Positions 6,133 to 8,540 of a stretch of 64,000 nt of DNA are shown piece by piece. The notes beneath the pieces were generated by a model, which saw only the letters and a list, made by a program, of their open reading frames with translations, made no database searches and was not told where the DNA came from. Each line of letters starts with the position of its first letter. The stretch's first letter is position 1. The DNA comes from Actinomyces oris (GTDB lineage Bacteria; Actinomycetota; Actinomycetes; Actinomycetales; Actinomycetaceae). Made by a program: the position numbers and the translations under genes. The DNA lies in contig NZ_MSKS01000009.1 of assembly GCF_001937445.1 (NCBI RefSeq), forward strand, positions 62,001 to 126,000, written 5' to 3'.

Positions 6133-6855
6133 TCAGCGGCGAGGGATCTGGTGAGCGACGTCGGAGAACACGCCGGTGACCCCCCAGTTGAAGAGCTCGT
6201 TGGCCCGGCTCGGCGAGTTGACGGTCCAGACGTTGACGCCGTAGCCCTCGGTTCGAAAGGCCTGAACCTGCTGCCGGGTCAGGCCGGAGTCCTCGGGATG
6301 GATGAAGTCGGCGCCCACGATCTCAAGGGTGCTCCTCCAGTCGTCGGACAGCGACCGGCTCTCGTAGAGGCACCCCACGGGAACCTCCGGGGCGCGCTGC
6401 TTGAACAGGTGGAGCAGCAGGTGGCTGAAGGAGGAGACGATGACCTCGACGCCCGGACGCAGTCGCTCGAGCTGGGCGATGACGCCGTCGACGAGACGCA
6501 GGCTCGCCTCCTTGCCGGTCTCGTTGGGCTTGATCTCGATGTTGGCGTTGAGGCCGGTGTCGTTCATGAGGTCGATGAGATCCCTCAGGGTGGGCAGCGG
6601 CTCGCCCTCGAACCGAGGGGAGAACCAGCCCCCGGCATCGATGCCGCCCAGGTCGGCCACCGTCAGGTCGTCGTACCGACCGGCACGGTTCGTGGTCCGG
6701 TCCAGGGTGGAGTCGTGGCAGATGATGACAGTTCCGTCGCCGATGACGTCGACGTCCGCTTCCACCCAGCCCACCTGGTGGTCCACCGCGCAGCGGAAGG
6801 CGGCCATGGTGTTCTCCGGGGCGAGCGAGCTCAGGCCCCGGTGCCCGAAGATCAT
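6133..6855 (-). CDS. Glycerophosphodiester phosphodiesterase (GDPD family)
   Basis: Hydrolyses glycerophosphodiesters released from phospholipids to sn-glycerol-3-phosphate and an alcohol. 240 aa from the ATG at 6855 (MIFGHRGLSS). The family signature HRG...ENT sits at the N-terminus, followed by the E-x-D pair (WVEADVDVI) and the catalytic His of HDSTLDRTTN; the C-terminal beta strand GVNVWTVNS is typical. No signal peptide, so cytoplasmic. A GGTGA SD lies 7 bases before this start. An alternative start at 6906 (MSSVTSSS) has a TAGCAT hexamer 7 bases upstream and could be leaderless. Divergent from the metal sensor gene at 6991. Confidence 0.9.
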   Translation of the reverse strand: MIFGHRGLSSLAPENTMAAFRCAVDHQVGWVEADVDVIGDGTVIICHDSTLDRTTNRAGRYDDLTVADLGGIDAGGWFSPRFEGEPLPTLRDLIDLMNDTGLNANIEIKPNETGKEASLRLVDGVIAQLERLRPGVEVIVSSFSHLLLHLFKQRAPEVPVGCLYESRSLSDDWRSTLEIVGADFIHPEDSGLTRQQVQAFRTEGYGVNVWTVNSPSRANELFNWGVTGVFSDVAHQIPRR

Positions 6856-6955
6856 GCGCTCGTCACCACACGTGCGTCCACCACTGCTTGAGGTCACCGA
6901 TGACATGGCCCAAATGCTACACGGGCCGCACGAGCACGCTCCGCGGAAGACCGCT

Positions 6956-6983
6956 TTGACATCAAGACAAGTTGATATAAAAT
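6956..6983 (+). promoter_or_regulatory. Promoter of the metal-sensor/metallothionein operon
   Basis: A consensus -35 TTGACA (6956-6961), a 16-base spacer and -10 TAAAAT (6978-6983). The sensor ATG begins 8 bases after the -10 box, so the transcript is probably leaderless. The spacer contains the palindrome reported separately. Confidence 0.75.
6961..6976. promoter_or_regulatory. Candidate ArsR/SmtB-family operator
   Basis: Inverted repeat ATCAA-gacaag-TTGAT lying exactly between the -35 and -10 boxes. ArsR/SmtB repressors bind imperfect dyads overlapping their own promoters and are released by metal. Binding by the adjacent sensor is an inference from position and symmetry. Confidence 0.6.
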
Positions 6984-6990
6984 CTCTTGT

Positions 6991-7320
6991 ATGCGAAAGG
7001 TCGCCACGCCCCCGGAGGCCCCTCTCGGAGAGGACTCCGCCGTGGTGCAGCTGTTCAAGGCGCTGGCTCACCCCATGAGGGCGAGCATCGTCCACCGCCT
7101 CATCAGCTCACCTGCTGACGTCACCGAGCTGGTGACGTTCCTCGGGGTGTCCCAGCCTCTGGTCTCCCACCACCTACGAGTACTGCGCAACGCCCACCTG
7201 GTCGAGTCGGTTCGCGAAGGAAAGCGCCAGAGCTACTCCCTCATTGACGACCATGTCGCATCCATCTTCATCGACACCCTTGAGCACACGAAGGAGCACG
7301 ACCATGACTGCCACCACTGA
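6991..7320 (+). CDS. ArsR/SmtB-family metal-responsive repressor (alpha-5 site)
   Basis: 109 aa winged-helix repressor. The HTH lies at about residues 44-72 (DVTELVTFLGVSQP, then VSHHLRVLRNAHLV). The C-terminal helix carries D86, H88, H99 and E102. These spacings (+2, +13, +16) are identical to the D104/H106/H117/E120 alpha-5 zinc site of SmtB and the equivalent site in CzrA. There is no alpha-3 Cys-x-Cys motif. The tail EHDHDCHH adds further metal ligands. Predicted to repress its own operon and be released by Zn(II), or possibly Co/Ni. It overlaps the metallothionein-like gene by 17 bases, recalling the cyanobacterial smtB-smtA pair. No SD; leaderless start likely. Confidence 0.9.
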   Translation: MRKVATPPEAPLGEDSAVVQLFKALAHPMRASIVHRLISSPADVTELVTFLGVSQPLVSHHLRVLRNAHLVESVREGKRQSYSLIDDHVASIFIDTLEHTKEHDHDCHH

Positions 7321-7627
7321 GCACCGCCCCGCCGAGGCCCACCAGCACACCCACGGCCCGGACTGCGGGCACCCCGCCGTCATCCACGGCGACCACGTGG
7401 ACTACATTCACAACGGTCACGCCCACCACGAGGACAACGGTCACTACGACGAGTGCGACGTCTGCTCGTGCGAGCACTGCTCGGACTCCTGTGCCGTGTG
7501 CGAGTGTGAGGACTGCTCCTGCCCGACCTGCAACCACAACACCTGCTCGTGCGAGCACTGCTCGGACTCCTGCTCCTCGTGCACCTGCGAGGACTGCTCC
7601 TGCCCGACCTGCACGCACGCCGCCTGA
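7304..7627 (+). CDS. His/Cys-rich metallothionein-like metal-binding protein
   Basis: 107 aa, acidic. The start is the ATG at 7304 with GGAG seven bases upstream. Two parts: residues 1-50 are His-rich (HQHTHGPDCGHPAV, HGDHVDYIHNGHAHHEDNGHYDE), a pattern I recall from short actinobacterial zinc-associated proteins. Residues 51-107 are a cysteine-rich module built of two 27-residue repeats (54-80 and 81-107), each with nine cysteines as CxC/CxxC motifs (CSCEHC, CSCPTC). There are 20 Cys in all, 19 of them in the last 57 residues. No signal peptide or membrane segment. Overlaps the SmtB-type sensor gene, so a role in zinc (or copper/cadmium) buffering is the simplest reading; the metal is unknown. 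Confidence 0.88.
   Translation: MTATTEHRPAEAHQHTHGPDCGHPAVIHGDHVDYIHNGHAHHEDNGHYDECDVCSCEHCSDSCAVCECEDCSCPTCNHNTCSCEHCSDSCSSCTCEDCSCPTCTHAA
7463..7624 (+). repeat. Two tandem 81-bp repeats encoding the Cys-rich units
   Basis: Units 7463-7543 and 7544-7624. Their first 29 bases are identical, and most differences are in the middle (codons for AVCECE versus SSCTCE). In-frame duplication extends the metallothionein module without breaking the frame. Confidence 0.85.
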
Positions 7628-7729
7628 CGCGCTGCACCCGGCCCCCGCTCAGCGATACCGCGACGGCAACGCGCTCGCCCAGGCTCTGACTCGGGTCGGA
7701 GACACTGATGACCAGATCGATACCGCAGG

Positions 7730-7747
7730 CGTCGGCCGGCGCCGACG
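7730..7747. terminator. Short hairpin between convergent genes
   Basis: CGTCGGC-cggc-GCCGACG, a 7 bp stem with a 4-base loop, between the metallothionein gene (plus) and the hydrolase gene (minus). No T-run on either side, so a terminator role is tentative. Confidence 0.35.
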
Positions 7748-7772
7748 TCAGCAGGGAAGCCCCAGGGGCGGG

Positions 7773-8540
7773 TCACCGGCCGGTACCGGCGAAGACTTCC
7801 TCGATGAAGGGATCAACCAGCCCGTGGTAGGCCTCCGGGGCGTCCCGCCGCACGCAGTGGCCGACGCCGTCAAGCAGCACCAGGCGCACAAGCGGATTGG
7901 TCACCTCAGAGGGGTCAGGAGCCATGCTGCCGCGGCGGGGCGCCAGGTAGAGCGTCGGCATCCTCAGCCGGTTGACCGCGCTGATGAGGTCGGCCTCGCC
8001 GAGATAGGTACCCTCGCGGATGTAACGGCGGTCGACCTGCCTCTTGCACGCGGCCCAGCCCTCGATCTCGGATTCGCTCCATGAGGTCTCGAGCCTCATG
8101 CGTTCCCGCTCGGCAGCGCCGCCGTCGGCGAAGGCGTCCAGGAAGCGCTCCTGGTGCTCCACGAACCAGGGGGCCGGGGCCCAGTGCCCGGTGGGACGCG
8201 CGGCGTCCTCCAGGACCAGTGCCCGAACGAGCTCGGGCCGGGCGACGCTCACCCGCAGCGACATGAGCCCTCCCAGACTGTGCGCCACGACGACCGGCGG
8301 CTCCGAGAACAGGACCAGTGTCTTCTCAAGGTCCTCTTGCATGGTCTGCGGCGCCCGGGTCAGGGTCTCGTCGTCCCACCGCGGGGAAGCCCCGTGCCCC
8401 CGCTGATCGATCGCCAGGACGTGATACCGGGAGGACCAGCGGGCCACGGCGTCGGGCCAGGCGGTAGCCGATTCGGTCAGGCCGTGGACTAAGAGCAGCG
8501 GCGGATCCGCTGGATCGCCCCACTCGTGCAGCGCGAGCAT
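7773..8540 (-). CDS. Alpha/beta-hydrolase fold protein
   Basis: 255 aa. HGLTE near residue 20 is the oxyanion-hole HG motif; AHSLGG near residue 87 is the nucleophile elbow (Ser). The catalytic His lies in GVGHCVRRD near residue 230, with the acid likely just before it in the last third (LAPRRGSMAPD region). The lid has several Trp and acidic residues. The substrate cannot be told from the sequence; relatives include lactone, ester and haloalkane hydrolases. The ATG at 8540 has GAGG five bases upstream; a GTG at 8546 is the alternative. No signal peptide. Confidence 0.82.
   Translation of the reverse strand: MLALHEWGDPADPPLLLVHGLTESATAWPDAVARWSSRYHVLAIDQRGHGASPRWDDETLTRAPQTMQEDLEKTLVLFSEPPVVVAHSLGGLMSLRVSVARPELVRALVLEDAARPTGHWAPAPWFVEHQERFLDAFADGGAAERERMRLETSWSESEIEGWAACKRQVDRRYIREGTYLGEADLISAVNRLRMPTLYLAPRRGSMAPDPSEVTNPLVRLVLLDGVGHCVRRDAPEAYHGLVDPFIEEVFAGTGR

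Follow-up and report, generated by a model that had tools for sequence, protein, structure and literature searches.

A gene pair in Actinomyces oris encodes an SmtB-like repressor and a two-module, metallothionein-like protein (MT), which belongs to a family that is widespread in Actinomycetota. The pair lies in the window, by which we mean the whole 64,000-nucleotide stretch that was analyzed, taken from a genome of 3.2 Mb in 88 contigs. We propose, with a probability of about 0.7, that the pair is an autoregulated zinc-excess operon whose MT would buffer zinc upon release of SmtB, and that the MT genes of sister loci would be activated by Zur. The broader proposition, to which we give somewhat better than even odds, is that the control of an undescribed actinobacterial metallothionein family was swapped in place within one genus, between a cotranscribed SmtB and a Zur activator acting on a promoter of fixed layout (box, 3 nt, −35, 18 nt, −10), and more than once in the history of the neighboring genes. 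The smtB–MT pair itself looks ordinary in its logic, and the novelty appears to lie in the regulator exchange, which looks new for actinobacterial metallothioneins, and in a protein family for which no description was found. Such an exchange, if real, would resemble the split between SmtB and Zur control that is seen in cyanobacterial metallothioneins.

The coordinates of the features are collected in Table 1. The pair is flanked by a GDPD-type gene and an alpha/beta hydrolase gene; we take these names, and those of sua5/tsaC and aspS used below, from a reading of the translations without a family search. The first-pass annotation, made from the sequence alone, had described a 107-residue protein overlapping the repressor, and this was borne out, as the two reading frames share 17 nt. 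A GGAG or longer match lies within 22 nt before the MT match in 31 of the 43 loci with an adjacent ArsR gene, and with such a good Shine-Dalgarno sequence more MT than repressor could be made. The repressor tail EHDHDCHH, which had been noted as an addition to the ligand set, is present, but it is not a clean sign of added ligands, because the last smtB codons sit within MT, whose Shine-Dalgarno sequence is formed by the K101 and E102 codons, so that the tail is partly dictated by the overlap. No terminator was found downstream of MT in a scan of 6850–7850. Operons with the 17-nt overlap also occur outside the genus (L072, L073, and L078), suggesting that the smtB form is probably old.

Table 1. 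Positions in the window of the features of the smtB–MT locus.
Feature	Position	Strand	Detail or basis
Sigma-70-type promoter of the operon	6956-6983	+	TTGACA 6956-6961, 16 nt, TAAAAT 6978-6983
Putative SmtB operator, dyad ATCAA-GACAAG-TTGAT in the promoter spacer	6961-6976	.	arm conservation
smtB-like ArsR/SmtB repressor gene	6991-7320	+	109 aa
Shine-Dalgarno sequence of MT, AAGGAG	7291-7296	+	formed by smtB codons K101-E102
Two-module metallothionein-like (MT) gene	7304-7627	+	107 aa, 20 Cys, 16 His
His module, residues 13-51	7340-7456	+	HTHGPxCGHxAVxHxDHVDYxHDGHxHxxxxGHYDEC; from alignments
Cys repeat 1, residues 52-78	7457-7537	+	CxCxxCx3CxxCxCxxCxCxxCxH, one extra Cys before; conserved in alignment
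Cys repeat 2, residues 79-105	7538-7618	+	same pattern as repeat 1, 27 residues on

The sigma-70 scan of 6850–7850 returned a single site with 11 of 12 matches (mean of 0.0 in 50 shuffles), in agreement with the near-consensus promoter that had been annotated, together with a dyad in its spacer. The pattern TTGACATCAA-N6-TTGATATAA occurred once in the window at up to three mismatches and in none of 100 shuffles, and TTGACATCAA-N6-TTGATATAAAAT joins the promoter and the dyad. In the whole genome, the putative operator was found once with zero mismatches, and sites with two or three mismatches numbered seven (its own site and the reverse reading of that site excluded) as compared with five for a reversed control pattern, so the operon looks self-contained. 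The predicted operator, which overlaps the promoter of its own gene, is conserved among some relatives. Twelve loci (L009, L011–L020, and L022) share identical arms, TCAA and TTGA, around six central bases that take 10 forms, and several other smtB-type loci (e.g., L023–L027) have a degenerate left arm, which leaves the footprint clean only among the nearest relatives. Among the 26 loci with the 17-nt overlap, L037, L072, and L078 do not fit the promoter pattern, and TATAA starts 15 nt upstream of the smtB ATG in all 23 that do. The −10 TAAAAT would place the start of transcription at or beside the ATG, so that the smtB mRNA is likely leaderless, as had been annotated, with the spacing kept among relatives.

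The repressor matched the ArsR/SmtB models PF01022 (E 7.3e-12, 45.4 bits, cut-off 22) and NF033788 (86.6 bits, cut-off 55) above their curated cut-offs, confirming the assigned sensor type. Its nearest solved structures are 8qkf, NmtR (2lkp, the second-best), and SmtB (1r22), and its residues 17–102 align without a gap to residues 35–120 of the 1r22 chain. D86, H88, H99, and E102 therefore correspond to SmtB positions 104, 106, 117, and 120, which we take to be the alpha-5 ligand positions, and the ligand spacing claimed earlier is exact. The pattern D-x-H-x10-H-x2-E is kept in all 43 ArsR proteins encoded directly upstream of MT relatives and in all 11 that are nearby and non-adjacent. The search for ArsR neighbors used a profile built from 10 Actinomyces-type sequences, which could miss regulators that diverge further. 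A second ArsR-type match adjoins a CDF exporter in the window genome (G000:C26:15505-16460; L001 and L232) and is probably a separate metal-efflux pair.

The MT protein has 19 Asp/Glu and one Lys/Arg residue besides its Cys and His residues, and 19 of the Cys residues fall within the 55 residues 51–105. Cys 54, 56, 59, 63, 66, 68, 71, 73, and 76 together with His 78 recur exactly 27 residues later as Cys 81–103 and His 105, with C51 and C21 as additional Cys residues, and the His module ends in HYDEC. The His module, the two 27-residue Cys repeats, and the internal duplication reported from the first reading were thus all confirmed in the sequence. The protein fits the general traits of metallothioneins, being small and Cys-rich, with CxC and CxxC motifs, few aromatic residues, and no Phe or Trp. 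AF2 gave no confident fold (mean pLDDT of 57.8), with four short strands in the His module. Alternatively, MT might be a metallochaperone or docking factor, whose His module hands zinc to partners and whose Cys repeats form a structural zinc domain. This role would suit the occurrence of the His module both in ZnuB tails and in stand-alone proteins of one or two modules; the density of Cys residues, the strict CxC/CxxC motifs, and the exact duplication fit a cluster-type store, and in the Actinomyces loci examined the only neighbors tied to MT besides the regulator are sua5 and aspS, two genes without an apparent link to zinc. We consider a chaperone role quite improbable.

Besides its place in MT, the His module was found singly, as a tandem pair, and at the C-terminal end of membrane proteins. 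All three of the His-tailed membrane frames tested (L115:4200-5162, L121:4101-5123, and L128:4200-5147) are ABC-3/ZnuB permeases (PF00950, E 1.9e-61, 1.5e-58, and 7.4e-54), and four plasmid records label a gene matching the His module as a zinc transporter permease. As the tail of a ZnuB importer, the module points to zinc; it joins zinc importers and likely zinc stores, and is a common module without a Pfam model. By eye, L114–L126, L128–L131, L133, L134, and L139 resemble His-tailed ABC-3 permeases, whose tails might serve in cytoplasmic zinc sensing or docking. Tandem pairs of the His module make up stand-alone proteins at L127, L132, L135–L138, and L140–L143, half or more of them in Streptomyces. 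The two stand-alone His-module proteins tested (L062 and L143) matched no Pfam family at E ≤ 0.01.

The main metal of the sensor might also be Cd, Co, Ni, or Pb, with MT detoxifying that metal. Cys-rich metallothioneins bind Cd tightly, and the second-best PDB relative of the repressor, NmtR, is a Ni/Co sensor. In vitro, seven metals can release AzuR, a sensor of the alpha-5 type (PMC8790569, excerpt), so that the alpha-5 ligand set leaves the metal specificity unfixed. Against a main metal other than zinc, all 43 adjacent proteins share with SmtB a Glu as fourth ligand, the His module is that of ZnuB tails, and sister species appear to use Zur. We regard such a metal as improbable, if marginally less so than the chaperone role.

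For the locus in the window, we favor control by zinc through SmtB. Apo-SmtB would bind the dyad between the −35 and −10 elements and block a strong promoter, and zinc bound at the alpha-5 site would free it from the operator. The bicistronic message would then yield little extra repressor and much MT, which would buffer zinc (possibly also Cd) through its two Cys9His units and through a His module with faster exchange. Loss or exchange of smtB would have occurred in eight Actinomyces loci, where zinc-loaded Zur would probably activate MT from a box just upstream of a weak −35 element; six or seven of these loci show the arrangement clearly.

The MT family was examined in 74 distinct loci selected for having a Cys part (83 minus nine repeats from the same strains), and hits to the His module only were set aside. 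The complete Cys pattern was present in 70 of the 74; L094 and L103 deviate at single Cys positions, and L111 (2059-2295) and L113 (2391-2594) have a single Cys repeat. The one-repeat forms might predate the duplication or have lost a repeat later. A family-level search gave some match in 79 of 200 genomes (37 full-length), with at least eight genomes of the same genus showing none, and an order-level search gave matches in 78 of 297 genomes, adding two full-length proteins from beyond the family (G257 and G317). In a thin draw across the phylum, 45 of 396 genomes matched, mostly in the His module, and full-length proteins were limited to G000 and G694, with G522 nearly so. Among the best 80 of at least 577 confirmed stretches, the closest named record was the A. 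oris S64C locus L064, whose MT is 96% identical, and the named relatives included Mobiluncus, Boudabousia, Pseudonocardia, Nocardioides, Lentzea, Kibdelosporangium, Rothia, Cutibacterium avidum, and Alloscardovia. The two-module layout therefore exists as annotated but is not peculiar to the window organism, since the family spans Actinomycetota.

No Pfam family was matched at E up to 1 by any of 47 MT members, although HMMER filters may drop weak, biased matches. The Cys module thus aligned to no family of non-metal-binding proteins in Pfam, and the MT profile gave two weak hits only in the PDB (2csz, E 0.11; 6ydh, E 0.75). Membership in the known bacterial metallothionein families of the SmtA/BmtA type, which we presume to be represented in Pfam, was set aside, as none of the 47 members matched their profiles. 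The one member tried against NCBIfam and as a single sequence against the PDB (P0001) matched neither. An open-literature search found no description of the MT family and no paper in which the His-module motif (four variants) is printed. Schmidt et al. (2010), cited in PMC4531530 for an in silico set of actinobacterial metallothioneins and metallohistins, might hold a bare prediction of such proteins. A mobile-element origin was likewise rejected, since the matches in the plasmid and phage collections (10 and 2 records) were all partial, without any place that covered 80% of the query. Some unannotated records labeled as phage or Enterococcus plasmid (MT836058, MT837699, and LR962140; H11, H12, and H1) match the His module or part of MT, and are possibly stray actinobacterial fragments.

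The link between smtB and MT, drawn from the window alone, proved to be common but not universal, since eight Actinomyces loci (L028, L030, L032, L034, L035, L036, L038, and L068; the zur-type loci) carry MT with no ArsR gene found in the flank, most of them with Zur-like boxes. No smtB homologue was found at E 1e-8 in any of the seven whole genomes of zur-type loci that were searched, L068 lying outside this set. In the genus, 24 of 49 genomes have smtB homologues, with identities of at least 63% in 23 of them and of 36% in the last; 22 of the 23 close homologues adjoin MT, and the 23rd (G477) is outside the loci examined. Upstream sua5 and downstream aspS enclose MT in all eight zur-type loci, and among the 23 smtB-type loci (1.5-kb flanks), seven have both genes, nine have one, two have GDPD only, and five have none. 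These data suggested that, for most loci, the chromosomal slot is the same and the control is different. Orthologous MT genes in the same slot under two kinds of zinc switch are a natural experiment.

A tree of sua5 and aspS was built from the 18 of 31 loci with more than 150 residues in the flanks, two rows being less than half filled; the MT-only tree was too poorly resolved for use. The sua5–aspS tree needs three changes of regulator type, with six of its 15 inner branches open, and the strongly supported branches alone force one change only. A single clade of smtB-less loci was rejected at a cost of 15 log units (p-AU 0.022), yet again the supported branches force one change. Recombination of the MT region may lie behind the tree pattern, and the promoter geometry shared across separate groups suggests common descent or promoter exchange rather than three inventions.

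Zur-like boxes were scored by their matches at the ten fixed positions of TGANAANNNTTNTCA, which is the core of a published actinobacterial znuA motif (PMC5472717, excerpt). The two-box score was unreached by 300 shuffles in six of the eight zur-type loci; the boxes are weak in L028 (17 of 300 shuffles reach the score) and L038 (9 of 300), the proximal box of the latter scoring 7/10 only. In seven of the eight, L028 being the exception, the promoter reads box, 3 nt, TTGNNN, 18 nt, TANNNT, with varying spacer letters and no other spacer from 14 to 22 nt fitting, so that the box adjoins the −35 element without covering the promoter; L035 has an additional Zur-like box within the promoter spacer. 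The same scan upstream of smtB in the 23 smtB-type loci gave at most 7/10, except for L037 at 10. Among eight smtB-type loci picked by eye, without a shuffle control, six had a Zur-like site of 8 or more, and such sites upstream of smtB in L037 (10), L106 (9), and L078 and L109 (8 each) might reflect double control by SmtB and Zur.

A single FUR-family match was found in each of eight genomes (the window genome and seven zur-type genomes), at most 3 kb from a znuA gene, and the best box at the znuA near zur scored 8 to 10. This box runs into a candidate ATG in seven of the eight and lies 17 nt before one in L144. The scan covered 18 of 28 ZnuA-family loci, and of the ten others five had a site of 8 or more and five had none. 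The composite MT element had 10 matches in the seven genomes, seven of them at MT in six genomes, and the reversed pattern had none; one further match lies 140 nt before the znuA match of G174, two are in G193, and G083 has no match. The seven hits at MT are expected, because the element was derived from these promoters, and it is the rarity elsewhere and the znuA hit that are informative. Zur control of CDF exporters was rejected as a parallel, as 16 exporter loci in these genomes showed no Zur box save one chance-like site of 8/10. The likeness to zitB of Streptomyces coelicolor thus stops short of the exporters, which argues against a simple copy of the Streptomyces scheme.

The direction of Zur control was weighed against published cases. 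In S. coelicolor, Zur activates zitB from a box 8 nt upstream of a TTGCCC −35 element (as compared with 3 nt from a TTG-type −35 in Actinomyces), and its footprint spreads upstream (PMC5472717, excerpt); zitB encodes an exporter with one box described in that excerpt, and the Actinomyces genes encode MT, with two sites scoring in six of the loci. The metallothionein gene bmtA of Synechococcus WH8102 is activated by Zur at high zinc (PMC9337993, excerpt), through Zur boxes at the MT promoter, as would be the case in the smtB-less Actinomyces loci; bmtA encodes a cyanobacterial BmtA and its activating proximal box overlaps the −10 and −35 elements, whereas the Actinomyces box ends 3 nt before the −35. 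The smtB-less MT promoters resemble that of zitB and have a poor −10 element, and on these grounds we favor activation over repression by roughly three to one.

Zur might instead repress MT in the smtB-less species, so that MT would be made in zinc starvation as a scavenger, reserve, or chaperone. Zur is mostly a repressor and activation by it is rare, according to the excerpted WH8102 text (PMC9337993), and the boxes upstream of MT have half-sites like those of the znuA boxes. Against this, the znuA boxes meet the ATG in seven of eight cases, whereas the MT boxes sit upstream of TTGNNN-18-TANNNT and leave it uncovered, except for the extra box of L035, and in the window the orthologous gene has a sensor of the zinc-excess type as its partner. 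Geometry is a weak guide to direction and alone proves neither, as the excerpt reports no correlation between two Zur boxes and activation and the bmtA box partly overlaps the −10 and −35 elements yet activates (PMC9337993). We judge repression to be unlikely, although less so than the two alternatives considered above. Activation by Zur is made directly testable by a candidate promoter of fixed geometry.

By a count of 2020, only two bacterial metallothioneins had had their biological function investigated (PMC7387436, excerpt). Before the WH8102 work, the control of bacterial metallothioneins was known only as SmtB-type repression, and that 2022 paper called Zur control of a bacterial metallothionein unprecedented and its mode of Zur activation without precedent (PMC9337993, excerpt). 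The smtB–smtA pair of Synechococcus elongatus shares with the Actinomyces pair an alpha-5 repressor beside a metallothionein gene and the logic of release in zinc excess; smtB is divergently transcribed there (PMC7387436, excerpt), but overlaps MT in the same direction in Actinomyces, and unlike SmtA the Actinomyces MT is a two-module protein of 107 residues whose Cys unit is duplicated and which matches no Pfam family. In Anabaena PCC 7120, the alpha-5 ArsR repressor AzuR acts on the metallothionein gene nmtA via an inverted repeat (PMC8790569, excerpt), as proposed here for SmtB; azuR is distant from nmtA, and the protein differs from the Actinomyces MT. An actinobacterial CXXC protein of Frankia, with many His residues, has been mentioned as a possible metallothionein (PMC4531530, excerpt) and might belong to the MT family.

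The remaining 12 of the 74 loci, outside the eight zur-type ones, also have no ArsR gene in the flank, some of the flanks being short. By eye, several of them carry ArsR-like dyads. Dyads that resemble or are related to GCGCATATGAGCAT were seen, also by eye, upstream of the MT start in the Pseudonocardiaceae-type loci L075, L076, L081, L088, L092, and L099; these dyads are probably operators of a non-adjacent ArsR.
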